A stretch of DNA of 64,000 nt from an uncultured Metabacillus sp. (GTDB taxonomy: Bacteria > Bacillota > Bacilli > Bacillales > Bacillaceae): contig NZ_CANNCR010000010.1 of assembly GCF_947503125.1 (NCBI RefSeq), positions 62,001 to 126,000 on the forward strand. Direction: 5' to 3'. Shown here piece after piece: positions 39,510-55,269 of the stretch (position 1 is its first letter; each line of letters begins with the position of its first letter). The position numbers were made by a program, and so were the translations under genes. The notes beneath the pieces are model-generated. The model saw only the letters and a program-made list of their open reading frames with translations. It was not told where the DNA came from and made no database searches.

Positions 39510-40381
39510 TTATTTTTTCAAAACCGGTATCCATATTTCACTTTTAAACGTTGGTGAAGTAACGTCTTTATTTTCATTCCATAAGATTTCTGGACCCTCA
39601 TTAATTTCATAGTTTGATGATGGAAACCATTCGGAATAAATCCGTCCCCAAATATTTTGAAGGGTATCTGGGAATGGCCCGACCACTTCAAATACAGCCC
39701 AGGTTGAGGCAGAGACTTCAAGCTTCGCTAGGTTTGTTGGACATTCCTTCGTTGTCGCAACACCAATATAATGATCTAGCGCCCCTTTTTCCTCCATGCG
39801 ACCTTCAGAAAAGTTTGCGGATGCACTAAGCAGTCCCACAGGTTTGACATTTGATAGGCTTTTAAGTTGACTAATCATTTCCTCATCTAAACTTTCCCAC
39901 ATCTCTGCGATCTCAGGATTTACTCCGTTAAAAATGATCGGAACACGTTTCTTTAGCCCAACGATGTTAAATCCTTCTTTTTCTTCAATACGATAGTTCA
40001 TAGAACTTCCTCCTTTAATGGATAATTGGAAGGTCATCCTAGGATACGCTTTAAGCGGGTGGCTGCTGTTTCTTACTTCTGATGGGGTTAGCCATGAAGG
40101 TTTTGAAAAGCTCTTGCAAACGAATCTGGTGAGTTGTATCCGTATTTCACTGCAACATCAATCACTTTTATGCTGCTATCTCTAAGCTCAAATGCTGCAA
40201 GAGTAAGTCGTTTGCGGCGGATGTATTCTGATAATGTTATTCCAGCAAGGAAGGAAAACATTCTTTTAAAATGATATTCGGAACAAAGAGCCAGCCTTGC
40301 AACCTCTTTATAGTCAATGTCATTTGTCAGACTTTCTTCTACATACGACATTGCGTTATTAAAATGTTTCAGCATATCCAT
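39510..40381 (-). pseudogene. AraC-family regulator with GyrI-like effector domain, split by a 1-nt frameshift
   Basis: The first part (40088-40381, 97 aa) is an AraC helix-turn-helix pair ending [12 protein letters not shown] then TAA. The continuation, [19 protein letters not shown], is in another frame and leads into a GyrI-like effector-binding domain ([10 protein letters not shown]...). Restoring one base near 40088-40091 gives 290 residues, the usual size of YdeE-type regulators. Within the joined frame, the codons AAAGGAGGAAGTTCT form a fine ribosome binding site for ATG 40001, so the effector domain may still be made alone. Confidence 0.85.
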
Positions 40382-40593: not shown

Positions 40594-41613
40594 CTATCCT
40601 GTGATATCACGTTTTTTGTAGCCGATGAACCCTATTAGCATAAGAATGGCTGCAATACAGGTTAACATACTTACTTTTAAACCATTCATCTCTTCAGCCG
40701 GCAATTGAGGAATCTGTCCAAATGGCGAGAGTTTTTCCATCCATTCAGGGAGCTTCAGCAAACCTCCTAAATAAACAACAAAGAAGGAATAACCTAAATA
40801 CAACCAGATCATCCCGGTTAAGTGTGGGAATAAGCCGATAAGCAGGACAGCCAAGTCAATCATGATCGAGATAGCTGGTAAGTAAACCATTGCTGCTTCA
40901 AACATCATTTCAAAGGAAATCGGATCCTCCATCGCCGGAGAGGCTGCAGACCATAAACCAATTAACGCTAGGAATAACATAACAAATCCGAATACGATTG
41001 AAAGGAAAAGGTAGCTTCCCATTACTTTTGTATGGGAAACTGCGCGAGATAATAAATGCTCTGTCCGGTTCCTTTTTTCTTCAGCCTTCAGCTTAAGCAT
41101 GATCATCAACGTAGGAATCGTACACATCATTGAAAGAACAGACATAAGCATGGATAAAAATTGTTCGGTTAACGATAACCCGTCACCTGATTTTAATAGA
41201 TTTGTCATCATTTCAATATTCGAAAAAAACGTCTCTAAATCACCAAACACAGATCCGTATGAAGCTCCCAATACGAAGGAAATCTCAACTGTCAAAGCGA
41301 TAGGCCACCAAATATTGTTAACATACACTTCCGTCCCTAAAATCCAGCCAAACGGTGATAACCACGAGAGAATTTCATTACTGACATCCCCGATTGCACG
41401 CAGTAAATATGCTGCCACAAGGAATGTAAAGGGTTGGCCAATGGTCCCTCGGGCATTTTCTGAAAGCTGGGCGAATAATAAAGTGCAAGCAGTGAAAAAT
41501 ATTCCAGTTGCTCCCAAAGCTGCTCCATATAGCAAGGAGCCTAATGTTTTCTTCTTAAAGATATTTAAACTTAGCAAAATGAAATATCGAAGGTGACATT
41601 TACATATTGACAT
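40594..41613 (-). pseudogene. ABC-2-type permease (tetronasin-resistance-like), 5' end missing
   Basis: The frame encodes the last 320 or so residues of a polyketide-exporter-type permease: LGSLLYGAALGATG, AAYLLRAIGDVSNEILSWLSPFGW, further hydrophobic helices and a C-terminal GYKKRD. Family members are about 530 residues, so roughly the first 190 are absent. The first 20 codons (MSICKCHLRYFILL) do not look like permease sequence and no ribosome binding site precedes them. The cut lies 18 nt from the 3' end of jetD, and the partner ATPase gene is missing. Probably a remnant left by the arrival of the Jet locus. Confidence 0.75.
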
Positions 41614-41631
41614 TAGTCTATTGTGTGTTAA

Positions 41632-42918
41632 TCATTTTATAAATTCTTCTTTAATATCATGAATGAGCTTACTTACTATCCCTTCTTGGTAAGCTGCTTT
41701 TTTTCTTACTTTTATTGACCTTACTACTTCTTTAAGTTCTGGCGATGTTACTGAATCAATTTTTGTGAGTCTAGTAGATATGTCTTCTTCAGATAGCATG
41801 TTTTCATAAGAATCTTTATCCATTCTCCAAAAAGTCACACGATCTTGATAACGGTCTTTAAGTCTTTGTGCCATTGTAAGTCCCTCAGGATCTATATCTC
41901 CTGAATAGTAAATGGAACAGCCAGTTTGAATAAGGTGATCTAACAATACCCAGCTGGCTGTTCTAAATTGACCATGGGTACAAATAATCGGAGCTGCAGG
42001 TACTTCGTCGACAATTGTAGAACATACACTTGAATTTTCAATGACCCAGACTTTATCACCTTTAACTGGCGATACTTTTTTCACTTTTAATAGTTCCTTA
42101 ATAGGTACGTTTAAAACCGTATCTTTGTTAGCTGCGGCTTTCCAAACTGGATGAACTCCGTATTCATCTTCTGCTAAAAGTCCCCGACATGTTACAAAGC
42201 TCCATAAGTCGTCTCGCATTAATCCATATTGACCAAGTAAATCATTTAATTCTTCTGTTGTTTTTGGCATACCCGATTCACGAAATCCCTTTATAGCTTG
42301 ATCAACATGTAAACAGTGTATCAGCAATTTTCCTGTCACTTGGTCATAATCAAAAAAATGAGGATTCCCTGTAGTTCTTTGGGCAAATAAAGGAAGCCGT
42401 TCAAATTCACCATTGGTAGGAAGTTGTTGAAATGCTTTAAATACAGCTGTTAATTTTTCAAGTAAGCGATTAGGATCCTGTTTATAAAGTGACCAAATCC
42501 ATCTAGTATCTGAGGATTTAGACTGGATCCAGTCCCACCACCACTTTCCATCTTGAAACATTGAACATAGTGATTGAAAGAAAGACCTTTCCCTCTCTTT
42601 GTCAAATGCTTGTTCTTCATTTTTTGTGAGGATCGATTCTTGCAGCACTTCCTCAAGTAACTGAGTGAGTGAATAATTAGCAAAAGGAGTACGTGCTATT
42701 GCCTTTTCAAAGGAAAGTAAAGAAATTTTCCCCTTATCCCGCAGTGTATCAACAGACTGACCGATAAATCCTGCGATCGATTCTACTTCCTCATTAGAAA
42801 AATCAATGATACTTACCGCTCCCCCGACACGACCGAGGGAACGATACTTTTCCTTAAATAAAGTAAATAGCTTGAGAAATCCAGGTTCCTCCCTGAAGAC
42901 TTGTACATTGTCATTCAT
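41632..42918 (-). CDS. jetD: Wadjet system nuclease subunit JetD (TIGR02679/DUF2399, TOPRIM)
   Basis: 428 residues from ATG 42918 (AGGAG 10 nt upstream; an upstream in-frame TTG lies inside jetC). The C-terminal TOPRIM domain is visible: acidic KVWVIENSSV, THGQFRTASW, then YYSGDIDPEGL with the paired Asp residues. In Wadjet, JetD cuts plasmid DNA after the JetABC SMC complex has extruded a loop and stalled on a small circle. The gene overlaps jetC by 8 nt, and it is the last gene of the operon. Confidence 0.88.
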   Translation of the reverse strand: MNDNVQVFREEPGFLKLFTLFKEKYRSLGRVGGAVSIIDFSNEEVESIAGFIGQSVDTLRDKGKISLLSFEKAIARTPFANYSLTQLLEEVLQESILTKNEEQAFDKERERSFFQSLCSMFQDGKWWWDWIQSKSSDTRWIWSLYKQDPNRLLEKLTAVFKAFQQLPTNGEFERLPLFAQRTTGNPHFFDYDQVTGKLLIHCLHVDQAIKGFRESGMPKTTEELNDLLGQYGLMRDDLWSFVTCRGLLAEDEYGVHPVWKAAANKDTVLNVPIKELLKVKKVSPVKGDKVWVIENSSVCSTIVDEVPAAPIICTHGQFRTASWVLLDHLIQTGCSIYYSGDIDPEGLTMAQRLKDRYQDRVTFWRMDKDSYENMLSEEDISTRLTKIDSVTSPELKEVVRSIKVRKKAAYQEGIVSKLIHDIKEEFIK

Positions 42919-45900
42919 TCGTAACCAACTCCTGTACAGGCTCCTTGTCAAAAACTAATGTTCGTTTTTTCCCATCCCACTGATAGCGGATGACGGTGAC
43001 AAAGTCAGCGTTTTTAGGTCGTACAAGTTCACATATTGATAAATTTGATATGGTATCATAATCCCCCCACAATGCTTGAGAATTCATAATATAACTAAAT
43101 CCGAGCTGTTCAACGACTTCAAACATATCACGAATATTGTTTTCATCTACACCTGCAAAAGCTTCATCAAGAGAAATGATAAACGGAGCCATATCTCCTG
43201 CTTCCTTGTAACGTGAATAAGCGGCTGTAAAGAGAGGAATATACATGGCCATCGCCTTTTCTCCTCCGCTAAATTTAAAGAAGGCATTGTTTGTTAGTTC
43301 TCGTTTTGGTTCATTGACACGCTTAAAAGATAGGACAAATGTGAACCATTTTCGATAATCTAACACTTCTTTTAATACTTGATGTAATGTTGATCCTTCA
43401 TTTCGCAGCTGGATTAATTCTTTTGCCTTCTCGATCCTAGATTGGAAGTGCTTTGTAATTCGATTTAAATCCTCTTCGTTTAAAAATTTACTGTTCCGTT
43501 GTAAAAGTTCTACAAGGTCTTTCGTATCTAGTTCTTGTTCAGATTCTGCTGTTAAGGGCTTCCATGCTATTGAGAATGTTAATCCTGAAGAGTTGTCTCG
43601 ACTTTCCATAATTTTGTTCATTTCACGGACCCATTTTTCCGCCCGATGGATTCGGTTGCGGAGGATGATTCCAACTGTATTTACAATAATATCTTCATAT
43701 AGCTGGCGATCCTGCTCATCTAGCCATCCTTTTTGATCTTCTAATTCTTTTTCTAATGATTTTAATACATAATAAGGACTTACCCGTTGACCATGGTATT
43801 CCATTTGGATAATTCGTCGTCCACGCAACTGATTCCACTCATTTTTAAAAGGTTCGTAGTAATCTCCTCTTTCGATAGAAAACCAGTCAGGTCTTTCAGC
43901 TTCTTCTGTGTATTCAAACATTCGATACTCTGTTAGATGTAACTGTTCATTAAAGAAAACTTTTGTAAGTTGTTCATTTAGCTTTGAACGATCATATTTT
44001 GCAACAATTGCTTCAAGCTGTGTGAGAATGGCAGAAGGGTTAATCTTATCGATTTCAATAAAGCCGCGGGCTACCTCACCTTTTACGATTTTTCCCCATT
44101 CTGCAGCCATATTCGACCAGAATTCAGCACTTGTTTTTGCTCCTTCTAGCTCTTTTTCACATGTGTCTCGATTCACTCTTTTCTGTGGAAGAGTTTCTTG
44201 GATATGTTCCATTCTTTTCTCGGCATCTGCAAGTAGCAGCTGTACCTCTTGAATACGTGCTCTAACCTCATCAATTCCTTTTAATTTCAATTGTTGTTCA
44301 ATCGAATTAATTTCAGCCTTTGTTTGAAAAAGTTGAGAATTTTTTACATTTTGCTCCCCTTTAATTTCATCCATTTCCTCTTCTTTTTCTTGAATTCTAC
44401 TATGAAGATCTTCAATACGTTGACGAGAAAATAAGCATTTTTGAAATGCTCCGCGAAGCTCATGAACATGATCTCGATAACGATTTGCCGCCTGTAATGC
44501 TTGTCCAATCGATTCTCTTGTTAAGGTGAGATTAAGCTGACTTCCTTGCTGGTGGAGCTTAAGTTTAATCATTTGGATTTGTTGATGAACCTTTTTCCAC
44601 TGATTATCCACCTCGAGCAGAGTCTTTTGCTGTTGTTTCAGACGATGATCATTCGTTTCAATATCAACATTTAGCTCACTTAAAACTTTGTCCGATGGTA
44701 TCTTCCTTTTCCACTCATCAGCATTCTGAAGCTCATCTTCAACTTGCAACAACTGATGCTTTATTGTTTCTAGTTCGACATGTAGTTCCCTTAGCTGCTG
44801 CTCGCATTCATGAATTTTTTCTTGCTGATATCGTTTGCGGGAAGATCGGCCAATATACTTTGATGGCCCTTGATTTGGGGCATGTCCTACTAAACATCCG
44901 ATAGAATACGTTCCATCGACATCAACGTGAAACCTTGTACCTTCTTGTTTAAGTGGAATGCTTCTTAATACTTCATCGACATGATGGTTAGAAATTAGAC
45001 TATCTTCGTCTAGATCCGGACGCAAATAATCCGCTAATGTAGGCTTGAGTATCAATGGCTCTTTTTGAATTACCCGATCATGGGTCGGTAAAATTTGTTG
45101 ATCGGTAATCAAACTATCTAACAATCCAATATGATTTAACGCAGACTCTAATCTTTCTTTTTGCTCATCTGTCACATGGTCTTGAAACTCGACCGCTGCA
45201 TAAAAGGGAACATATGATTGATTTTTGTCATGTAGCTTCTTTCGAAACTCCTCTGTATCTTTGGCACGCTCTGGATTAGCTATCTTCATTGTCTTCCATT
45301 GGTGGAGCTCATCTTTTACAATTTCAATCTCCTGTTCTTTTGTAACTTTTCGTTTTTCGGTAAGGTTTTTCTCTGTTTTCATCTCGGCTACATAATCATT
45401 AATAGCAGTAAATAATTGTTCGCGTACATCATCATAGCGATTCACTTCATATAAACCTTGTAAAGAACGTGCGATTTCCTGAAGCCTCTCATTAGAAAAT
45501 AAAAGCTTTGGATGATGTTCAATCCAGCTAAATACTTCATGCTCTAACTGTTGCTTCTGTTCGGTAAACCACTGCTCTAAATGATCTTGTTCCTTCCGCA
45601 ACTCATCTATCTCCTGCTTTTTCTCAGAAGATAGTCGCCCTAGTCGTAGGTGTTCTTCTGATAGGCGAGCCTCTTCTTCTGCAAGTTGTTTCAAGGAAGT
45701 TAGTAATCTGTCATGATTTCCCGCTTCCTGAATCCAAACCGTAAAGTCAAATTCATCTTCCTTTTGACGTTCAAAATCATTTACATTTACCTCGTGCAGC
45801 GGAAATGCCGCTTCTTCCGCATCCAAATGCAATTCCTCTAGCACGTCTTTTACAACGGTTTCCTGCTTTCTTAATTCTTCTTGAATTTGCTCTCTTTCTC

Positions 45901-47020
45901 GCCAATCACGACTATGTAGCTTCTTTTTAGAATCCCATTTAACGTTAAGTGCTTGAAGATCTTCATTTAACGTAACAAATTCTTTTTTCTTTTCGGTCAA
46001 ATCCTTTTCAAGTTTCCACACCTCATGACCTTGTAATCGATCTTTTTCATTTTCTGCAATAAGCTTTTGCTGCTGAACTTGTTCTTTTTCTTTCTCAAGT
46101 TGATTGATTTCATTTTCTAGTTCTTGATCTTGTTTTACCAAAGCTTTGACTTGATCGTCTGCATCTTTATGTCTCTTTTGTGCAGCATGCCACTGAGCAG
46201 CTCGCTCTGCTAAAATATACTGATTATAAAGATGGTATTGATTGACTAGCTTGCGACTTGATTCGTATTCTCTCTCTAATTGTTCAAGCTGTTGCTGGGT
46301 TTGATCCATGCTTTCAATCGTATCAGATAAATGCCTGAGCTCGTCATCCGTTAGGGGCGGTAGAGCAGACTCTAATATTTCATAAATAACCGTTGGTTTA
46401 AAGTCTTTAGACAATTTAGGACTTCTGAGTTGAATAAGCAGTTTAATGAGATCCTCATAAGCTTCGATTGATTCGAAGCCGAAAATGTATTTATTAACTA
46501 GCTCCATATATTCCCTTTGCGTATGGACAACATTCCCACCTTGGCCAATGCGATTTTCTAACTCTTTAGCCGAAAATGGTACCCGATCTCCTAGATGAGT
46601 TTGCGCAAGCTGAAAATCATGCCCAATTCGTCGATTGTCTGTTAAGAGAAAATACCACGATTTTATCCCTTTATGTCTTTTAGCCTGCATGCCTATTCCG
46701 GTTGTAACATACTGTTCCGTACCTTGTTTTTTATATTCAATAAATAAATAGCCTGTACGCTCATCACGATTGACAACTTCCTTTTCACCAAGCAAATAAT
46801 CTTCCATTCTTCGTGCCTTCGATCCAAACGGATCTAAACGGTCAGGTGTCTTTTTCCCATCTAATAACACAGGTAAAAAACTTTGCATCGTAACCGATTT
46901 TCCTGATCCATTTGTGCCGCGAAGGAGAAGTTTTCCATCCGAAAACGTAAAAATTTCATCATCATAATACCAAAAGTTTAATAACCCTGCCCGGTTCATT
47001 ACCCATTTTGAATTTGTCAT
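42911..47020 (-). CDS. jetC: Wadjet SMC-like ATPase JetC (TIGR02680)
   Basis: 1369 residues. Walker A LRGTNGSGKSV (33-43), very long coiled coils in the middle, then the ABC signature FKFSGGEKAMAM and Walker B PFIISLDEAF followed by GVDE near the C-terminus. This is the SMC motor subunit, larger than typical SMC, consistent with the TIGR02680 group. With JetA (kleisin-like) and JetB (winged-helix partner) it forms the loop-extruding complex. GGCGGAGA precedes the ATG; spacing to jetB is 15 nt. Cytoplasmic. Confidence 0.93.
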   Translation of the reverse strand: MTNSKWVMNRAGLLNFWYYDDEIFTFSDGKLLLRGTNGSGKSVTMQSFLPVLLDGKKTPDRLDPFGSKARRMEDYLLGEKEVVNRDERTGYLFIEYKKQGTEQYVTTGIGMQAKRHKGIKSWYFLLTDNRRIGHDFQLAQTHLGDRVPFSAKELENRIGQGGNVVHTQREYMELVNKYIFGFESIEAYEDLIKLLIQLRSPKLSKDFKPTVIYEILESALPPLTDDELRHLSDTIESMDQTQQQLEQLEREYESSRKLVNQYHLYNQYILAERAAQWHAAQKRHKDADDQVKALVKQDQELENEINQLEKEKEQVQQQKLIAENEKDRLQGHEVWKLEKDLTEKKKEFVTLNEDLQALNVKWDSKKKLHSRDWREREQIQEELRKQETVVKDVLEELHLDAEEAAFPLHEVNVNDFERQKEDEFDFTVWIQEAGNHDRLLTSLKQLAEEEARLSEEHLRLGRLSSEKKQEIDELRKEQDHLEQWFTEQKQQLEHEVFSWIEHHPKLLFSNERLQEIARSLQGLYEVNRYDDVREQLFTAINDYVAEMKTEKNLTEKRKVTKEQEIEIVKDELHQWKTMKIANPERAKDTEEFRKKLHDKNQSYVPFYAAVEFQDHVTDEQKERLESALNHIGLLDSLITDQQILPTHDRVIQKEPLILKPTLADYLRPDLDEDSLISNHHVDEVLRSIPLKQEGTRFHVDVDGTYSIGCLVGHAPNQGPSKYIGRSSRKRYQQEKIHECEQQLRELHVELETIKHQLLQVEDELQNADEWKRKIPSDKVLSELNVDIETNDHRLKQQQKTLLEVDNQWKKVHQQIQMIKLKLHQQGSQLNLTLTRESIGQALQAANRYRDHVHELRGAFQKCLFSRQRIEDLHSRIQEKEEEMDEIKGEQNVKNSQLFQTKAEINSIEQQLKLKGIDEVRARIQEVQLLLADAEKRMEHIQETLPQKRVNRDTCEKELEGAKTSAEFWSNMAAEWGKIVKGEVARGFIEIDKINPSAILTQLEAIVAKYDRSKLNEQLTKVFFNEQLHLTEYRMFEYTEEAERPDWFSIERGDYYEPFKNEWNQLRGRRIIQMEYHGQRVSPYYVLKSLEKELEDQKGWLDEQDRQLYEDIIVNTVGIILRNRIHRAEKWVREMNKIMESRDNSSGLTFSIAWKPLTAESEQELDTKDLVELLQRNSKFLNEEDLNRITKHFQSRIEKAKELIQLRNEGSTLHQVLKEVLDYRKWFTFVLSFKRVNEPKRELTNNAFFKFSGGEKAMAMYIPLFTAAYSRYKEAGDMAPFIISLDEAFAGVDENNIRDMFEVVEQLGFSYIMNSQALWGDYDTISNLSICELVRPKNADFVTVIRYQWDGKKRTLVFDKEPVQELVTNE

Positions 47021-47035
47021 TTTTCTCCGCCTTTC

Positions 47036-48178
47036 TTAAAAATCAGCTGGGTACTCACCAGTGATTACGCCTAACAGTGGTCTTATTCGAATAAGCGAGG
47101 TGTCCTCGTCTACATCTGCCATCATCCAGTCTTTCATTGCAGCAACTAGCTCTGTACGAATTGCACTCGTGCTTTTTTCACGAAAATACTTCGACCAACC
47201 CGAGCCATAGCTTTCACGTAAAGTATCTATTATTTGCTCAAACTCTCCTTCTGTCACAAGGATTTCACCGTTTTCATTAGGGACGAACCGTTCGGGCTGT
47301 CCGTGAATCTCCTTTGCTAGCTGTAAAAGGATATCCGTAGATGCCTTCGTATTAGGATAAAGCTGATGATATTGTCTAGGTTCAGAGATTGATAGAAATG
47401 CCGTATTCTTATAAACATGAAGCTGATAATCACTATGCTTTTCAATGTCCTCTGCGAGCCGATTCCGGAAATTTCGAATATAGAGGAAGTCTGGGTCTTG
47501 CTGGTCTTTACGGTGCAAGCCTGGAGAAAAGAATAGTTTACGATACACCCGTTTACGACGCTCATCCTCTTGGTTTAGCTTCCAATCATCTTGCAGGAGC
47601 TCATTCCAATGAGAATAAGTCGAAAAATCTTCTGGATATGTTCTCATGAAATACCGACTATATATCGTTGCTTCATATAAAACTTCTTGCTCTTCGTTAT
47701 GATCAAAACGCCCAATATCACCATCAATTGTATGAATCAACTGAAAATCGATTAAAATGTTGACAGCCCTAATCAAAGATTTTCTATGAGTAAAAAGGGT
47801 CCAATCAAGTGGATAATCCCCAGGGTAATCACTTTGTATCTCTTGACATAACTCTGACAGAAGAAATTGCTCATCAACCTCCTTTCCTTCTAAAAAGGAA
47901 AGAGCACAACAGAAAATAGCATAATCCATAGGCTCTTGGAAATGCTGAATCCCCATCCAACGTTCCGGCTCTACAGGGATTTTTTCTAATTTAATAAAAT
48001 ATTGGTGAACAATAAGCCGTAACCCGAATTTTTCATTAATATAGCGGCGCAATACCTTTTCCCGCTCACGAATAAGCTGATACCATTCTGGATGTTTCGC
48101 ACGTAAAATCCAATAATGATGGAACAACAAATCCATTCCTTGTCTTGCTTTTTCATCAAAAACATCGAATTGCTCCAT
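47036..48178 (-). CDS. jetB: Wadjet subunit JetB (TIGR02678/DUF2398)
   Basis: 380 residues from ATG 48178 (AGGGG 8 nt upstream; GTG 9 nt earlier is too close). Helical and charged, with two winged-helix-like stretches, matching the DUF2398 partner of TIGR02680 proteins. In type I Wadjet the corresponding JetB is a small KITE-like protein; here it is larger. It starts 5 nt after the jetA stop codon. Role: structural partner of the SMC complex. Assignment rests on order and sequence character. Confidence 0.85.
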   Translation of the reverse strand: MEQFDVFDEKARQGMDLLFHHYWILRAKHPEWYQLIREREKVLRRYINEKFGLRLIVHQYFIKLEKIPVEPERWMGIQHFQEPMDYAIFCCALSFLEGKEVDEQFLLSELCQEIQSDYPGDYPLDWTLFTHRKSLIRAVNILIDFQLIHTIDGDIGRFDHNEEQEVLYEATIYSRYFMRTYPEDFSTYSHWNELLQDDWKLNQEDERRKRVYRKLFFSPGLHRKDQQDPDFLYIRNFRNRLAEDIEKHSDYQLHVYKNTAFLSISEPRQYHQLYPNTKASTDILLQLAKEIHGQPERFVPNENGEILVTEGEFEQIIDTLRESYGSGWSKYFREKSTSAIRTELVAAMKDWMMADVDEDTSLIRIRPLLGVITGEYPADF

Positions 48179-48183
48179 TCTTA

Positions 48184-49671
48184 TCACCCCTGCTGTTCAA
48201 ACTGAAATGTTGCATCAGGCATTAGGAGATTTCCATCTTCAGCTTGCAAAGTAATGGTACGTTCTTGATCAAGCTTTACCTTAACTAATAAACCATAATC
48301 CGTTTTGACAACTCGATCCTTAGAAGTCATAGATTTTCCGATCCAGCTTAATAAAACCTTTCTGATGAACGGTTCAACTGTAGAAAGGGATGAAAGTTTA
48401 ATAACCCCTTGCTCCATATATTTTTCTATTAATTTCTTTTCCTGTTCACGTTCCCTTAAATATTGTTCTCTCTGTTGTTTTTTCTTTTCTTCATTTGATT
48501 TCATTGAGCCAGGCTTTGTTTTTTTACGATATCGATTAGTCCTCGGTTTAATCGTAAGGAGCGTAGGAACCTCATCCCATGGATCGACATGAAGATTTTC
48601 TGTTGTTCCATCTTCAAGCTGAAGATGTTGAATCGTCATCGCCCCAAATACGACAGATGAAATTTTATGAGCTTCTTCTAAATTCTGGCTTTCTGCAAAC
48701 CATTTTGCTAAATGTAAGTAGTCTTTCTTTCGACTGCGAAAATGTTGTTGTCTTTCACCAATACGTTGTACGTATCTTGTCATCCTCCGTATCATTTCAT
48801 TTGTTTGCCACTGAAGTACCTCAAGCTCACTTTGCTGGGTACCTGATCCTAAAAACCAGCTTCGAAGCGAATCCCAATATTCCTCATATTCAACCAGCCA
48901 CTCCGCTGATGAAGACGATATGTCCTCAAGACGAGGAATCGACCTCCGATGTTCGATTAACTTTTGAAAATAAGACTGTAGTTTCGCCAAAGACAGTTCC
49001 CCTAACCTCTGCTGTATTTGCAGAGATGTTTTTTGAAGGGACACAATAAAATCGCGTAAATATGTTGTAAATTGATTTTTATATACAAGAAATGCCTCGG
49101 TTTGCATTCGTTGATCCGTTTGTTCACTGTTAATATAGGCAATATAATCTGCTGTACTTGTTCGAATTGATTGAAAATATCGAAATACATCCTCCCAAAT
49201 CCGCATGTATTCTTCTGCTGGTTTAATTAATTCTAAATTCAGTTCATTTTGAAGGGTTATAAGAGCTTGGAGGAGCCTGTCAAACTGAGAACGTTCCAAA
49301 GAGCCTTGAAACGTATCGCCTATTGTCTCCAATTGCACAAGCATTCTCTCAATTTCAACAGTATATGGTGTGCATTGATATCGAAACCTTTTTTTCTTAT
49401 ACTCTTCAATTGTTTTGGCATTCGCCATATCTTGGCGAGCGATTAAATTATTCCATTTTACCAATTGAGCTAATTGTTGATGAAGTTGCTCCTCTTCATA
49501 ATCAAAAAATGCTGGAATTGAGCGCATATGATCTAGTATTTCTTCAGGAGCAATGAAATCTCTCATTCTTTCATGCTGATGATAAAAATATCTTAAGATC
49601 GTTCGATAGTGTGCCGCAGAATCTGCTGTTAAATAGCTAGCCTCGATAATCTTTTTCATAGTTGGATCCAA
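48184..49671 (-). CDS. jetA: Wadjet subunit JetA (TIGR02677/DUF2397), kleisin-like
   Basis: 495 residues, helix-rich with Gln/Arg-rich stretches (HYRTILRYFYHQHERM near the start; RYVQRIGERQQHFRSRKKDYLHLAKWF around 315). This matches DUF2397, the first protein of the four-gene set. Expected role is the kleisin-type bridge of the complex. TTG start at 49671 with AAGGA 9-10 nt upstream; the ATG 12 nt further is much worse placed. First gene of the operon, all four genes tightly packed. Confidence 0.87.
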   Translation of the reverse strand: MDPTMKKIIEASYLTADSAAHYRTILRYFYHQHERMRDFIAPEEILDHMRSIPAFFDYEEEQLHQQLAQLVKWNNLIARQDMANAKTIEEYKKKRFRYQCTPYTVEIERMLVQLETIGDTFQGSLERSQFDRLLQALITLQNELNLELIKPAEEYMRIWEDVFRYFQSIRTSTADYIAYINSEQTDQRMQTEAFLVYKNQFTTYLRDFIVSLQKTSLQIQQRLGELSLAKLQSYFQKLIEHRRSIPRLEDISSSSAEWLVEYEEYWDSLRSWFLGSGTQQSELEVLQWQTNEMIRRMTRYVQRIGERQQHFRSRKKDYLHLAKWFAESQNLEEAHKISSVVFGAMTIQHLQLEDGTTENLHVDPWDEVPTLLTIKPRTNRYRKKTKPGSMKSNEEKKKQQREQYLREREQEKKLIEKYMEQGVIKLSSLSTVEPFIRKVLLSWIGKSMTSKDRVVKTDYGLLVKVKLDQERTITLQAEDGNLLMPDATFQFEQQG

Positions 49672-49712
49672 ACGTCATCATCCTTATTTAATTTCTATAA
49701 GTACTATTTTAA

Positions 49713-49740
49713 ATGATAGACTTATTGATTTAAATGTAAA
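49713..49740 (-). promoter_or_regulatory. Candidate promoter of the jet operon
   Basis: Minus strand TTTACA (49735-49740), 16 nt, TATCAT (49713-49718), about 35 nt before the jetA ribosome binding site. The rest of 49741-49954 shows nothing else recognised. Confidence 0.45.
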
Positions 49741-49954
49741 AGAGTTCCTTTCTGATTTTCATTAAAGCACATAAAATTGGGTGTCTATCTCCGACAAGTA
49801 CTAGGAAATATGACTACTGGTAGAACTTTTTTGTTTCACTATCTATTATTCTAAAGTGGTCAATATGGACTTCTTAACATAAAATCCTTGTAAGAGAAGG
49901 AAGTTCATGATATATTACCAATAATTAAATTTTTCTTATTTCAATACTTTTTGA

Positions 49955-50135
49955 AGTGAGGATAGAGGTGCAAAGTTCATGAGTACACATTCTGAGGAGA
50001 ATGAGATCCTGTGATGATTGTGGAAAGGGGAATTTGCCGAAGCAGAAAGAATCTCATGTTCTTGAAGCTGGTTCTGTTATTGAATAAATACAGAACTGTC
50101 ATATAGGTCACTATATGGAGGGCTATCTTACGCAC
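49955..50135 (+). promoter_or_regulatory. Lysine riboswitch (L-box)
   Basis: The conserved L-box blocks are present in order: GTGAGGATAGAGGTGCAAAG, AGTA, GGGGAATTTGCCGAAGCAG, GAAGCTGG, a paired arm ACAGAACTGTCATATAGG, and the invariant TATGGAGGGCTATC near 50114-50127. It is followed by a terminator and dapA. Lysine binding should stop transcription before dapA. Confidence 0.93.
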
Positions 50136-50262: not shown

Positions 50263-51153
50263 ATGAATTTCGGGCAAGTACTAACAGCAATGGTTACCCC
50301 GTTTGATCAAAATGGCGAGGTAGATTTTAACGCAACAGAACAATTAGTTAATTATTTAATTGAAAATGGAACTGATGGACTTGTGATAACAGGTACAACT
50401 GGTGAGTCCCCTACGTTAACAACCGAGGAAAAAGTCGAGTTTTTTAAGTTTGTTGTAAAGGTCGTAAATAAAAAAGTGCCGGTAATCGCAGGAACTGGAT
50501 CTAATAATACGAAGGCATCGATCAGCTTAACGAGACTTGCGGAGGAAGCAGGAGTCGATGGGATTATGCTTGTGACTCCTTATTATAACAAGCCATCACA
50601 GGAAGGATTGTACCAACATTTCAAAGCAATTGCTGAAGCAACATCCTTGCCGGTCATGCTTTATAATATTCCTGGACGAAGTGTAGTGAATCTGTCTGTT
50701 GATACCATTGTTCATCTTTCTAACATTGATAATATTGTCTCAATAAAGGAAGCGAGCGGTGATTTAGATGCGATGGCAGAGATCATTAGCAAAACTCCTG
50801 AAAATTTTACGCTGTATAGTGGAGATGACGGCTTAACGCTTCCTGTTTTATCCATCGGCGGAACTGGTATTGTCTCGGTTGCTTCCCACATCATCGGCAA
50901 TGAGATGCAGGAAATGATCAATCATTTTAAAAATGGCGATGTTCAGCAAGCGGCATCCTTGCATCGCAAGCTGCTCCCGGTTATGAACGCATTATTTGCA
51001 GCGCCAAACCCAACGCCGGTCAAAGAGGCATTAAATATGATTGGTGTCAATGTTGGCGGGGTTCGCTTACCCATGATTCCTTTGAACAATGGTGAAAAAG
51101 CAGTGCTGAAAGAGACATTAGAAGCTAGTAAATTGGTGACGATTGTAAAGTAG
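50263..51153 (+). CDS. dapA: 4-hydroxy-tetrahydrodipicolinate synthase
   Basis: 296 residues, full length. GTTGESPTL (substrate-binding Thr pair), YNIPGRS (Tyr133 type) and IVSIKEASGD with the Schiff-base Lys are all present. It condenses pyruvate with aspartate semialdehyde, the first committed step to lysine and diaminopimelate, and to dipicolinate in spores. It stands alone and is controlled by the riboswitch upstream. AAAGGGTGTGAAGCT precedes the ATG. The L-box makes it a lysine-repressed copy. Confidence 0.95.
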   Translation: MNFGQVLTAMVTPFDQNGEVDFNATEQLVNYLIENGTDGLVITGTTGESPTLTTEEKVEFFKFVVKVVNKKVPVIAGTGSNNTKASISLTRLAEEAGVDGIMLVTPYYNKPSQEGLYQHFKAIAEATSLPVMLYNIPGRSVVNLSVDTIVHLSNIDNIVSIKEASGDLDAMAEIISKTPENFTLYSGDDGLTLPVLSIGGTGIVSVASHIIGNEMQEMINHFKNGDVQQAASLHRKLLPVMNALFAAPNPTPVKEALNMIGVNVGGVRLPMIPLNNGEKAVLKETLEASKLVTIVK

Positions 51154-51183: not shown

Positions 51184-52953
51184 TTAGTTAATTTGTTGAA
51201 TTCTCCCCTCGATTTGTGCAGCAAACGGATGTTTCATTGATTTGATATAATCAACAAGTGCATCTACATCAACTGGTCCAGTTTTTCGATTTTTCCCTTT
51301 ACGGAAGCCTGTAAAGTTGTCCCCTCCCTCTGCTAAGAAAGCATTGGCAACAACTGTGTAGCTTTTGTTGGGATCCATATCTGATCTATCAGGCAGCTGC
51401 ATGGAAATGATTTTAGCTCCTGCAGGCTGGTTCGCATCCCAAGTATACGTGAACCCAGAGATTTGGAGCATTTTCGTCCTGCTTGCTTGCCATTGTTGAT
51501 TCAATATCTTTTGAATTTGTTGCCCAGTTAAACTCATTTTAATTAAATTGTTTTTAAAGGGTTGGACAACATATAATTGCCTCCATGTCACTTCTCCAGC
51601 ATCCAAGTCTGCCCTGATTCCTCCTGGGTTCATTAATGCAATATCCGCCTTCATTGCCTCGCGCTGGGCATCTGCAATCAAATTGCCCAATGCAGATTCG
51701 CCGTTTTCATTTTGCGCAGCTGTGATCGAAGTTTCAGCTGTCCCGATGACACGACTTACAATCGGTTCTATTTTCTCTTCATATTTCTCAATCATCTGCT
51801 TTGTCTCAGGATGTGGCGAGATCCCTTCTTGGTAAACCGTAACAATTTCAGATCGCTTCCCAACAATGTCACCTGTTTGCGGATCTATTTCAATATCAAC
51901 ATCAGAAAAAGCTGTACCATATGAATAAGATTGAACCAATAGTTTTCCATCAACAAAAGCATTTAAATAGGCATGATTATGACCGCCAAAAATAATATCG
52001 ACTTCATCATCAACCGCTTTTGCTATATTAACGATTTCTCCTGTTGCTTGCTCGCCATTATCCTTTGATGTTCCAGGGTTATGTGCAAGGACGATAATTG
52101 CTTTAACACCTTGTTCTTTTAACTCTGCAGCAGCCTTGTTTATGGATTCTGCTTCATCAAGAAACGTAATTCCTTCCACACCGCTTGGTACAACTAAGCT
52201 TGGCGTGTCTGTTGTTACAACTCCGATAAATCCAAGCTTCATCCCATTGTTTTTTAAAATTTTATATGGAGGGAGAATGGTTTTACCTGTTTTTTTATCA
52301 ATCACATTTGCCGCAACCCACGGAAATTGAGAACCAGCAAAATCCCCTGTTGCTTCATGTTTTCCTCCATTTATCAACAGCAGCAGCTCTGCTATTCCTT
52401 TATCAAATTCATGATTTCCAACTGTTCCAATTGTAATGTTTATTGTATTTAAAAATTCAATTGTTGGCTCATCCTGCAGTAATGAGGAAATCGGCGGACT
52501 GGCTCCAATCATATCACCAACATGTACGAATAATGTGTTTTTATTTTCGTGAGTACGCTGCAATAAATATGCTGCAAGATAATCCGCACGTCCTGCAGGC
52601 TTGCCATTGACTTGTCTGGTGACATTTAATTGACCGTGCAAATCATTAATCCCAAGTAGCTGGATTTGCTTGTATTGCGGGTTTTCTTTCTCTTTATTGC
52701 GATTGAGTGGCAACTCGGGACGTCGTTCGATATGGCCATGATAATTTTTTGAAAGGCCCTGTTCATTGTCGTTATAAGTTTTTGAGGCTTGATATTGTTG
52801 ATTGACTTGTTGGGAGGATTGGCTAGTTTTTAAATCAATATTTACTAGGTTTTTATTTTTTTGTTGATTGTCTATTGTATGGTTAAAAGCATTGAAGCCA
52901 AATAAAGTGAATAATGAGAGGGTTAGTAATATAGTGTATAGATATTTTTTCAT
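51184..52953 (-). CDS. Secreted 5'-nucleotidase / metallophosphatase
   Basis: 589 residues from ATG 52953 (GGAGG 5 nt upstream). Signal peptide MKKYLYTILLTLSLFTL, then a low-complexity Gln/Asn stretch, then the metallophosphoesterase domain: NDLHGQ, VGDMIGASP, GNHEFDKG, LAHNPG and GGHNHAYLN. The C-terminal 5'-nucleotidase domain follows (ALGNLIADA, NPGGIRADL). It dephosphorylates external nucleotides or related compounds. No sortase motif at the end, so it is probably released or loosely wall-bound. Confidence 0.93.
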   Translation of the reverse strand: MKKYLYTILLTLSLFTLFGFNAFNHTIDNQQKNKNLVNIDLKTSQSSQQVNQQYQASKTYNDNEQGLSKNYHGHIERRPELPLNRNKEKENPQYKQIQLLGINDLHGQLNVTRQVNGKPAGRADYLAAYLLQRTHENKNTLFVHVGDMIGASPPISSLLQDEPTIEFLNTINITIGTVGNHEFDKGIAELLLLINGGKHEATGDFAGSQFPWVAANVIDKKTGKTILPPYKILKNNGMKLGFIGVVTTDTPSLVVPSGVEGITFLDEAESINKAAAELKEQGVKAIIVLAHNPGTSKDNGEQATGEIVNIAKAVDDEVDIIFGGHNHAYLNAFVDGKLLVQSYSYGTAFSDVDIEIDPQTGDIVGKRSEIVTVYQEGISPHPETKQMIEKYEEKIEPIVSRVIGTAETSITAAQNENGESALGNLIADAQREAMKADIALMNPGGIRADLDAGEVTWRQLYVVQPFKNNLIKMSLTGQQIQKILNQQWQASRTKMLQISGFTYTWDANQPAGAKIISMQLPDRSDMDPNKSYTVVANAFLAEGGDNFTGFRKGKNRKTGPVDVDALVDYIKSMKHPFAAQIEGRIQQIN

Positions 52954-53165
52954 CGGGTCCTCCGTGTATGATTGAAGCTCGTACAATATTTAATTTCTAT
53001 TGTTATTTTTTGAATTTTGGTTGATTTCATACTTGAATTTTCAGGTCGGTTAATAGCTTATCAAGGTGATAAGCGAGTTGACACTTAGTAGCAATGTCCT
53101 ATTTCCATTCATTTTTTCACCATACGTTTTATGATTAGTATTATTATCCGAACGGAAAATAAAAG

Positions 53166-53493: not shown

Positions 53494-55224
53494 TCATAAC
53501 AAGCTCTGCAAATTTCGCTTTCTATCCATATACGTCACTAGTTCTTTATCTATTCGGTCATATTCTTCAGTACCCGCTGACAGATAACCGATTTTTCCTA
53601 GTAGCTCTGTGATTTTTGTTTCAATGAGTGCCAATTCTTCGTGTACATTTTGTTCTTTTCGTGTATACTTGTTCTTTTTTCGTTCTTCATACTCCTTTAA
53701 TCCCATTTCAATTTGTTGAATTTTACAATTGTCAATTACTAATAATTTCGTACACAGTTTTTCAATCAAGTACCTGTCATGTGAAACGATCAAAAGTGTG
53801 CCAGTATACGTACTGAGGGTTCTTTCCAGCTCTTTCCTGCTTGGCAAATCTAAATGGTTTGTGGGTTCATCTAAAATTAGTAGGTCATATTCCATCAGAA
53901 TCATATAGATAAGCTTGATTCGTGTCCGTTCACCAAGACTCAATTGAGAAATCGTTTTTTCAAGGATTTCTTGCTGAATACCCATATTGGCAAAAAGCGT
54001 TCTGGCTTTCGTTTCCTGCTGTCGACCTTTAAGATCAAGGTATTGTAATGGTGTTTTTTCACTAGGGAGGTCACTTACATCCTGCGAAAGATACGCCACT
54101 TTCGTCGATTCACTTATCCAAAGCGTGCCTTTCGTTAGGGTTTCTTCCTCAAGCAGGATTTTGATAAACGTCGTTTTCCCTGCTCCATTAGATCCTAGCA
54201 AGCCGATCCTTTCGCCATGCTTTACATAAAAGTGGCTTTTATCAAACAGCACTCGATCACCAAACTGTTTTTTGATTCCTTTTGCTTCAAGAATCCTTTT
54301 TCCGTGTTTATGAGCTGATTCAAATTGAAAAGAGACGGATTTCTCTTCTTTTGGCTTTGTCACCTCATGTTTTGACAACTCTAGATTTAAGCGCTTCAGC
54401 TTTGATTTTATTTGATTATCTTTTTTCTTTGCCTTCGCTCGTTCGAATTCCCGTAATCCCATCTGACGATTTTCAGCATTTGACCTCCCTTTTCCCGCTT
54501 GACGATGGGCTTTTGCTGACCAGTCTTTTAAGGTGGTAAGCTGCTTTTCAATCATCTCAACTTTACGTTGTTGTTTTTCATATTCACGTTTTTCTTGTTC
54601 ATACCTTCTTTGCTTTTCGTTTCGATAGGACGTATAATTTCCGTCATATACCGTTAACTTTCCTGCTTCTAGTTCATATATTTTTGACACTGTTTCGTCT
54701 AAAAAGTAACGATCATGCGAAATAATGATGGCAGCACCTGAATAGTCTCTTACTTCTTCAATCAGCCAGTTTGCCCCTTGCATATCCAAGTGATTTGTCG
54801 GTTCATCTAAGATTAAAAACTCTGGGGAATTTGCCCAAATTTTTGCTAAGGACAATTTAAGCTTTTCTCCCCCGCTTAAATGGTGCAGATCTTCTTTGTC
54901 CCATCGATCTTTCGGCAAACCAAGCTGCTTGCTTGTTTCCATCAGTTTCTCTCCATTATTGAATAGTTCAGAATCAATCGACAAAGAATAATCTGTAGAT
55001 TGAGGCAAATAGCCAATTTTTAAATCGGATGGCCACATTGTGACAGTACCTTTGTCAGGCTCAATCATGTGCATAAGAATTTTTACAAATGTTGATTTCC
55101 CCGCACCATTACAGCCGACGAGACCAATTTTTTCACCTTTTCGTATATCAAAGCTAACTTCCTTTAGGATTTCCCGTTCTCCAAAACTTTTCTGCAGGCT
55201 TTTACCTTGTATAACAGGAGTCAT
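53494..55224 (-). CDS. ABC-F family ATPase (antibiotic-resistance/ribosome-protection type)
   Basis: 576 residues from ATG 55224 (GAGGTG 6 nt upstream). Two ABC domains: GCNGAGKS / LSGGEKLKLSLA / LILDEPTNHLD, and GSNGAGKT / LSLGERTRIKL / LILDEPTNHLD. The linker between them (about 190-300) is long and charged, and there are no membrane helices. ABC-F proteins bind the ribosome E site; several dislodge antibiotics. The long leader with a terminator (55270-55300) is typical of inducible resistance members such as VmlR-type genes. Whether it protects from a drug, and which, is unknown. Confidence 0.9.
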   Translation of the reverse strand: MTPVIQGKSLQKSFGEREILKEVSFDIRKGEKIGLVGCNGAGKSTFVKILMHMIEPDKGTVTMWPSDLKIGYLPQSTDYSLSIDSELFNNGEKLMETSKQLGLPKDRWDKEDLHHLSGGEKLKLSLAKIWANSPEFLILDEPTNHLDMQGANWLIEEVRDYSGAAIIISHDRYFLDETVSKIYELEAGKLTVYDGNYTSYRNEKQRRYEQEKREYEKQQRKVEMIEKQLTTLKDWSAKAHRQAGKGRSNAENRQMGLREFERAKAKKKDNQIKSKLKRLNLELSKHEVTKPKEEKSVSFQFESAHKHGKRILEAKGIKKQFGDRVLFDKSHFYVKHGERIGLLGSNGAGKTTFIKILLEEETLTKGTLWISESTKVAYLSQDVSDLPSEKTPLQYLDLKGRQQETKARTLFANMGIQQEILEKTISQLSLGERTRIKLIYMILMEYDLLILDEPTNHLDLPSRKELERTLSTYTGTLLIVSHDRYLIEKLCTKLLVIDNCKIQQIEMGLKEYEERKKNKYTRKEQNVHEELALIETKITELLGKIGYLSAGTEEYDRIDKELVTYMDRKRNLQSLL

Positions 55225-55269
55225 GCAGATCACCTCTTTTTGTTTTTCATTGAGAGGTTTTTAGAAATT

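Follow-up and report, generated by a model that had tools for sequence, protein, structure and literature searches.

A complete set of four jet genes occupies positions 41632-49671 of the window, by which we mean the whole 64,000-nucleotide stretch of DNA from an uncultured Metabacillus sp. that was analyzed here. We conclude that the locus is almost certainly an intact, chromosomal type II Wadjet system, in which a JetABC motor would be combined with plasmid cutting by JetD. Judged from its sequence, it represents a new operon of an already known type, and a close relative of the studied and structurally solved system of Neobacillus vireti. The same comparisons suggest an explanation for the large JetB subunit of type II systems, which is probably composed of two KITE units fused in one chain.

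Operon layout, family assignment and catalytic motifs

An earlier note on this DNA had described four genes between 41632 and 49671 in the order jetA-jetB-jetC-jetD. Both the coordinates and the order were correct, the genes being minus-strand open frames:

48184..49671, minus strand: jetA (DUF2397, TIGR02677), kleisin subunit; 495 aa, TTG start at 49671
47036..48187, minus strand: jetB (DUF2398, TIGR02678), KITE subunit; 383 aa, GTG start
42911..47020, minus strand: jetC (TIGR02680), SMC-like ATPase; 1369 aa
41632..42918, minus strand: jetD (DUF3323 + DUF2399, TIGR02679), TOPRIM nuclease; 428 aa from the preferred ATG

As that note had also observed, the genes are tightly packed, with a 4-base overlap between jetA and jetB, a 15-base gap between jetB and jetC, and a further overlap between jetC and jetD. 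The longest open frame for jetD spans 41632-42951 on the minus strand and encodes 439 aa from a TTG at 42951. Since the sequence at the jetC/jetD junction is ATGAATGA, in which the ATG at 42918 overlaps the jetC stop, this ATG (428 aa) is the more likely start. The window copy contains no split gene, and each of its four frames is open and of full length. Promoter-like and terminator-like sites were at about the level of shuffled sequence (25 compared to 28.7 in shuffles, and 7 compared to 6.2, respectively).

When compared with the four TIGR models, as the earlier note had proposed, all four proteins scored above the curated NCBIfam cut-offs: JetA reached 409.2 bits against TIGR02677 (cut-off 165.85), JetB 248.1 bits against TIGR02678 (cut-off 124.65), JetC 1002.1 bits against TIGR02680 (cut-off 462.85) and JetD 221.5 bits against TIGR02679 (cut-off 196). 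The Pfam assignments were DUF2397 for JetA, DUF2398 for JetB, SbcC_Walker_B for JetC and DUF3323 plus DUF2399 for JetD, which additionally matched JetD_C at a weaker score that was still above its cut-off. The best PADLOC models were JetA2 (686.4 bits), JetB2 (520.9 bits), JetC2 (1677.6 bits) and JetD2 (539.3 bits). The call of a TIGR02677-02680-class Wadjet operon, complete in its four genes, was therefore upheld, and corresponds to the PADLOC JetA2-JetD2 set, or type II. JetC and JetD also gave weak matches to the JetC1, JetD1, JetD3 and LmuB models, as might be expected were the locus instead a Wadjet of type I or III, or an SMC system resembling Lamassu. However, the best JetC1 and JetD1 models scored only 64.5 and 38.9 bits, compared to the 1677.6 and 539.3 bits of JetC2 and JetD2, and DUF4194, the family of type I JetB, had no Pfam match in the window JetB or elsewhere in this genome. 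Because the type II models score far higher, we regard this assignment as refuted, with practically no chance of being right.

We next aligned each subunit with its relatives. The alignments were drawn from 86 loci with matches, from which the window's own entries (L001 and L090) and rows with less than 90% query coverage were dropped; counting the window, 75 JetA, 83 JetB, 80 JetC and 80 JetD rows were kept. The following stretches carry the catalytic motifs:

46895..46918, minus strand: jetC Walker A, GTNGSGKS, codons 35-42; conservation measured in 80 rows
43247..43273, minus strand: jetC ABC signature, FSGGEKAMA, codons 1250-1258; S-G-G-E-K-A invariant in 80 rows
43142..43183, minus strand: jetC Walker B, FIISLDEAFAGVDE, codons 1280-1293; L-D-E-A-F-A-G-V-D invariant in 80 rows, Pfam SbcC_Walker_B
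41890..42039, minus strand: jetD stretch with the TOPRIM acidic residues E294, D341 and D343; these are invariant in 80 rows

The claim that the ABC motifs (Walker A, signature and Walker B) and the TOPRIM acidic residues of JetD are intact was borne out. Within Walker A, every position was invariant in the 80 JetC rows except the second (0.31) and the fifth (0.99). JetD possessed 23 invariant residues in its 80 rows, among them E294, D341, D343, E345 and G346, numbered from the ATG at 42918; in line with established knowledge of JetD, we take E294, D341 and D343 to be the TOPRIM acidic residues. Taken together, these features of the sequence indicate a complete and apparently functional operon.

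Comparison with the Neobacillus vireti and type I systems

In the N. vireti DSM 15602 locus (L054), identity to the window proteins was 413/493 (83.8%) for JetA, 312/383 (81.5%) for JetB, 995/1369 (72.7%) for JetC and 288/426 (67.6%) for JetD, which is thus the least N. vireti-like of the four subunits. JetB and JetC aligned without gaps. We take N. vireti LMG 21834 and DSM 15602 to be one strain, and the gene order and families of its Wadjet-II system (nvJET) are identical to those of the window operon. Their neighbors differ: in N. vireti a chorismate-binding enzyme lies upstream and two PmbA/TldD-family genes lie downstream, while the window operon lies between a dapA-like gene and a permease-like gene that is broken. 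The JetA, JetB and JetC chains of PDB entries 9qe0 and 9qe1, the former titled as the Neobacillus vireti Wadjet-II JetABC dimer, matched the window proteins almost end to end (JetA residues 1-493 to 9qe0_E, JetB residues 4-383 to 9qe0_D, and JetC residues 1-1368 to 9qe0_A at 2233 bits). For JetD, the only row returned by a search of PDB sequences at E values up to 1 was an unrelated one (E 0.081).

According to the portion of the N. vireti study on which we draw (PMC12647877), the type II complex cleaves naked circular DNA, its hinge is without the channel found in type I, and it was unable to bypass the obstacle tested. By analogy, the hinge of the window JetC would presumably be without a channel as well. 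The same portion gives the reconstituted stoichiometry as (JetC2JetB1JetA1)2 for N. vireti and (JetC2JetB2JetA1)2 for type I, i.e., two JetB per JetA in type I (PMC12647877).

Type I systems provided a second point of comparison, the examples being E. coli GF4-3 ecJET, P. aeruginosa PA14 JetABCD and C. glutamicum MksBEFG. Based on the part of the type I literature used here (PMC10586767), type I and the window operon have in common an SMC protein, a kleisin, a KITE protein and a TOPRIM nuclease, and the first half of the window JetB matches type I JetB by profile. The earlier note had remarked that the subunits are larger than in type I, and that the DUF2398 subunit is much larger than the small type I JetB. 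The size difference itself was correct: JetC is 1369 aa compared to 1097-1140 positions in three JetC1 models, and JetB, which belongs to DUF2398 and is 383 aa rather than a DUF4194 protein of ~200 aa, is about twice the type I length and carries a second KITE-like unit. Neither size is unusual for the type, however, as long JetB and JetC subunits are the type II norm (389 and 1371 residues, respectively, in N. vireti), and the large DUF2398 JetB is a trait of type II and not of the window locus. Consistent with this view, at least 90% of the window JetB length is covered in 82 JetB rows that come from other loci.

The two halves of JetB and its N-terminal peptide

We examined JetB as two halves, together with a short motif near its N-terminus:

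47639..48157, minus strand: jetB first KITE unit, codons 11-183; type I JetB profile match
47039..47581, minus strand: jetB second KITE-like unit, codons 203-383; fold of the half 188-383, modelled alone
48152..48160, minus strand: jetB N-terminal F-D-E motif, codons 10-12; aligned JetB rows

The alignments used for JetB (A1 and A2) contained the window sequence and 56 rows from L010-L089 chosen for spread. Using hhalign, the first half (residues ~11-183) matched 20 type I JetB/DUF4194 sequences with a probability of 87-92%, while the second half matched type I JetB with a probability of only 3%. A separate model of the second half (188-383), built from the 57 rows, had a mean pLDDT of 90.2 and a pTM of 0.80. 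Its top structural match was N. vireti 9qe0_D (Z 19.0), with an rmsd of 8.5 over 191 residues, indicating that the relative placing of the model's parts differs from that in the solved chain. The model also resembled MukE 3euh_D (Z 11.1, rmsd 3.6, 163 aligned) and type I JetB 8as8_C (Z 10.7, rmsd 4.3, 168 aligned) and 8dk1_F (Z 10.0, rmsd 4.2, 161 aligned). MukE and JetB rows covering most of the model ranged from Z 9.3 to 11.1, compared to Z 6.9 for the best match outside MukBEF/JetABC. Foldseek likewise returned type I JetB (E 1.3e-4 to 2.2e-4) and MukE (E from 3.5e-4) for this half.

The full-length JetB model (pLDDT 84.6) displayed a helix and strand order that was similar, albeit not identical, between the halves. 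Its best MukE match, 3euh_D over residues 3-196, had a Z of 8.1 amid unrelated rows of similar Z. More generally, MukE and type I JetB rows in this search (Z 7.3-8.1) fell on either half, one MukE row (7v8p) spanned parts of both, and unrelated cullin winged-helix domains were interspersed with Z up to 9.0. Because the MukE and JetB rows were mixed with unrelated ones, the full-length search is insufficient by itself to reveal KITE halves. Compared by profile with each other, the two halves gave no match (probability 0.5%); thus, the case for a duplication rests on fold and on secondary-structure order, not on sequence.

These comparisons and models argue that type II JetB probably consists of two fused KITE units in one chain, a conclusion that was probably already reached in the 2025 N. 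vireti structure paper. Such a fusion agrees with the stoichiometry, in which JetA is paired with a single JetB in type II and with two in type I, and the double-length JetB would presumably stand in for the type I JetB pair.

JetB begins with a variable stretch followed by F-D-E. D11 was invariant in the 57 aligned JetB rows, and F10 was present in 90% or more of them. Among 80 distinct JetB rows, F-D preceded an aromatic-W anchor in 78, and F-D-E did so in 67; the spacing from F-D to the aromatic-W was 15 residues in 72 rows, and in the other 6 the script took a later F-D. In type I, as reported in the portion of PMC10586767 relied on here, the N-terminus of JetB carries an IFDR motif with which JetD makes contact. 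A role for the F-D-E peptide in JetD docking is a guess prompted by this likeness. The literal IFDR was absent from the first 70 open-frame residues of 20 type I JetB loci (L125-L144; 58 of the 398 genomes of the phylum had a match, and the loci were taken from these), several of which show F-S-R or F-T-R. A global profile alignment spoke against a simple equivalence of F-D-E and IFDR, as it placed F-D-E beside a D-D / K-E stretch of type I rather than on F-S-R or F-T-R. A fuller scenario would have a small ancestral JetB undergo doubling and fusion, its halves then diverge past profile recognition, and F-D-E, confined to the beginning of the first half, make JetD docking asymmetric. As a whole this scenario is conceivable but rather doubtful, the alignment speaking against its docking part.

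Genomic site, relatives and proposed function

A congeneric genome (G016, locus L120) shares the DNA on both sides of the operon: homology ends at window position 41541 and resumes at 49862. In two further genomes (L121 and L122), homology is likewise lost at 41542. The features next to these junctions are:

40594..41613, minus strand: permease-like gene in the flank, at the jetD-side junction near 41542; from the comparison with L120
49955..50133, plus strand: lysine riboswitch RF00168 in the jetA-side flank; 128 bits

Between the shared flanks, the window has 8.3 kb containing jetABCD, while L120 has ~7.3 kb of other DNA, in which the permease-like gene continues and which also holds genes for an ABC ATPase and a TetR-like regulator, a run of masked bases, and genes for an AHSA1-domain protein and a luciferase-like monooxygenase. 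We assigned the permease, ATPase, TetR and dapA labels ourselves from the sequence. G016 had no TIGR02680 match, and these flanks are most simply explained if older DNA gave way to a segment carrying the jet genes. Compared to its 534 aa relative in L120, the permease-like gene at 40594-41613 has lost its beginning and ~160-170 bases of its interior; it is probably dead, and had no match in Pfam or NCBIfam. On the jetA side, the riboswitch precedes a dapA-like gene (50263-51153). A riboswitch-dapA unit divergently adjoins jetA in at least 2 of 80 other loci (N. soli L011 and N. bataviensis L027), a count that is a lower bound given the little flank available at some loci. The junction may therefore have travelled with the operon or may be a favored site. 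We rejected a mobile-element origin of the junctions, as no repeat linked them among those listed for 41300-50100 (20 of 36 direct families and 25 of 26 inverted pairs) and the window contained no tRNA gene.

Several other features of this region were noted. The AraC-type regulator at 39510-40381 occupies two open frames (an HTH part of 97 aa and a GyrI-like part of 175 aa), and its L120 counterpart is a single gene of 290 aa. The 5'-nucleotidase at 51184-52986 is 600 aa in the window, and a 111 aa remnant in L120. The genome carries another dapA-like gene (G000:C1) that is 69% identical to that of the window. Finally, an ABC-F ribosomal-protection-like protein (53494-55233) scored above the NF000355 cut-off and below those for Vga, Msr, Lsa and CplR.

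We also surveyed relatives of the operon. Among the best 80 of 288 loci with JetC, 78 had the order A-B-C-D on one strand, the two exceptions (L037 and L087) being cut by contig ends. In 8 of these 80 loci (L015, L023, L027, L034, L035, L047, L049 and L051), a gene occupied at least two frames instead of one, possibly through decay or sequencing error; in N. bataviensis LMG 21833 (L027, 7998-11767), for example, jetC is split over three open frames. The present genome had one TIGR02680 match and one JetD_C match, and was the only 1 of 21 genomes of the genus to pass the TIGR02680 cut-off. A second genome of the genus (G002) gave a marginal TIGR02680 match to positions 810-969, and a third (G009, locus L124, 2877-7352) holds a shortened relic of a type II Wadjet with a 501 aa jetA, a shortened jetB (191 aa), only the C-terminal part of jetC (417 aa) and a shortened jetD (294 aa). 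Across the family, 4 of 80 genomes passed the cut-off, a number that includes the genus and this genome. JetC relatives were found in 22 of 72,556 plasmid records; since each was below 60% identity, no plasmid source is indicated.

Our preferred reading of the locus as a type II Wadjet system implies the following course of events, which is taken from the literature, mainly on type I, and includes the extrusion-collision model as presented in the part of PMC10586767 drawn on here. JetA (kleisin), JetB (KITE) and JetC (SMC ATPase) would assemble into a dimeric motor that uses ATP to extrude DNA loops. When the DNA is a small circle, both motors would reel it in entirely and then collide, and their collision would activate the JetD TOPRIM nuclease, leading to plasmid cutting. 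The chromosome and linear DNA would escape cutting. We infer that the window copy would be expressed and would restrict plasmids in its own host.

The fold of the second half of JetB resembles that of MukE (Z 11.1, modelled alone), and MukE rows were also found for the first half, as expected if the operon were instead a housekeeping SMC system like MksBEF or MukBEF that organizes the chromosome rather than defending it. MukBEF is not known to have a nuclease subunit; in contrast, a gene for a TOPRIM-type nuclease with intact acidic residues belongs to the window operon. Occurrence of the operon is moreover patchy at the TIGR02680 cut-off (1 of 21 genus genomes, 4 of 80 family genomes), and the jet operon appears to replace other DNA at its site, so that we consider a housekeeping role very improbable. 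We likewise questioned whether the operon, albeit intact in sequence, is silent or inactive in this strain, as a relic being lost. Its permease-like neighbor is truncated, the nearby AraC-type gene is split, and interrupted or shortened jet relatives are known; the presence of the operon alone is therefore no proof of its use. On the other hand, all four jet frames remain open and full length, and the catalytic residues and tight spacing have been retained, making a silent relic unlikely. An intact type II Wadjet system remains our favored interpretation.

With 68-84% identity to the N. vireti proteins, the window operon represents a natural variant for probing type II contacts. If JetB is indeed composed of two fused KITE units, this would provide a simple reason for the differing JetB:JetA ratio of type I and type II Wadjet systems.
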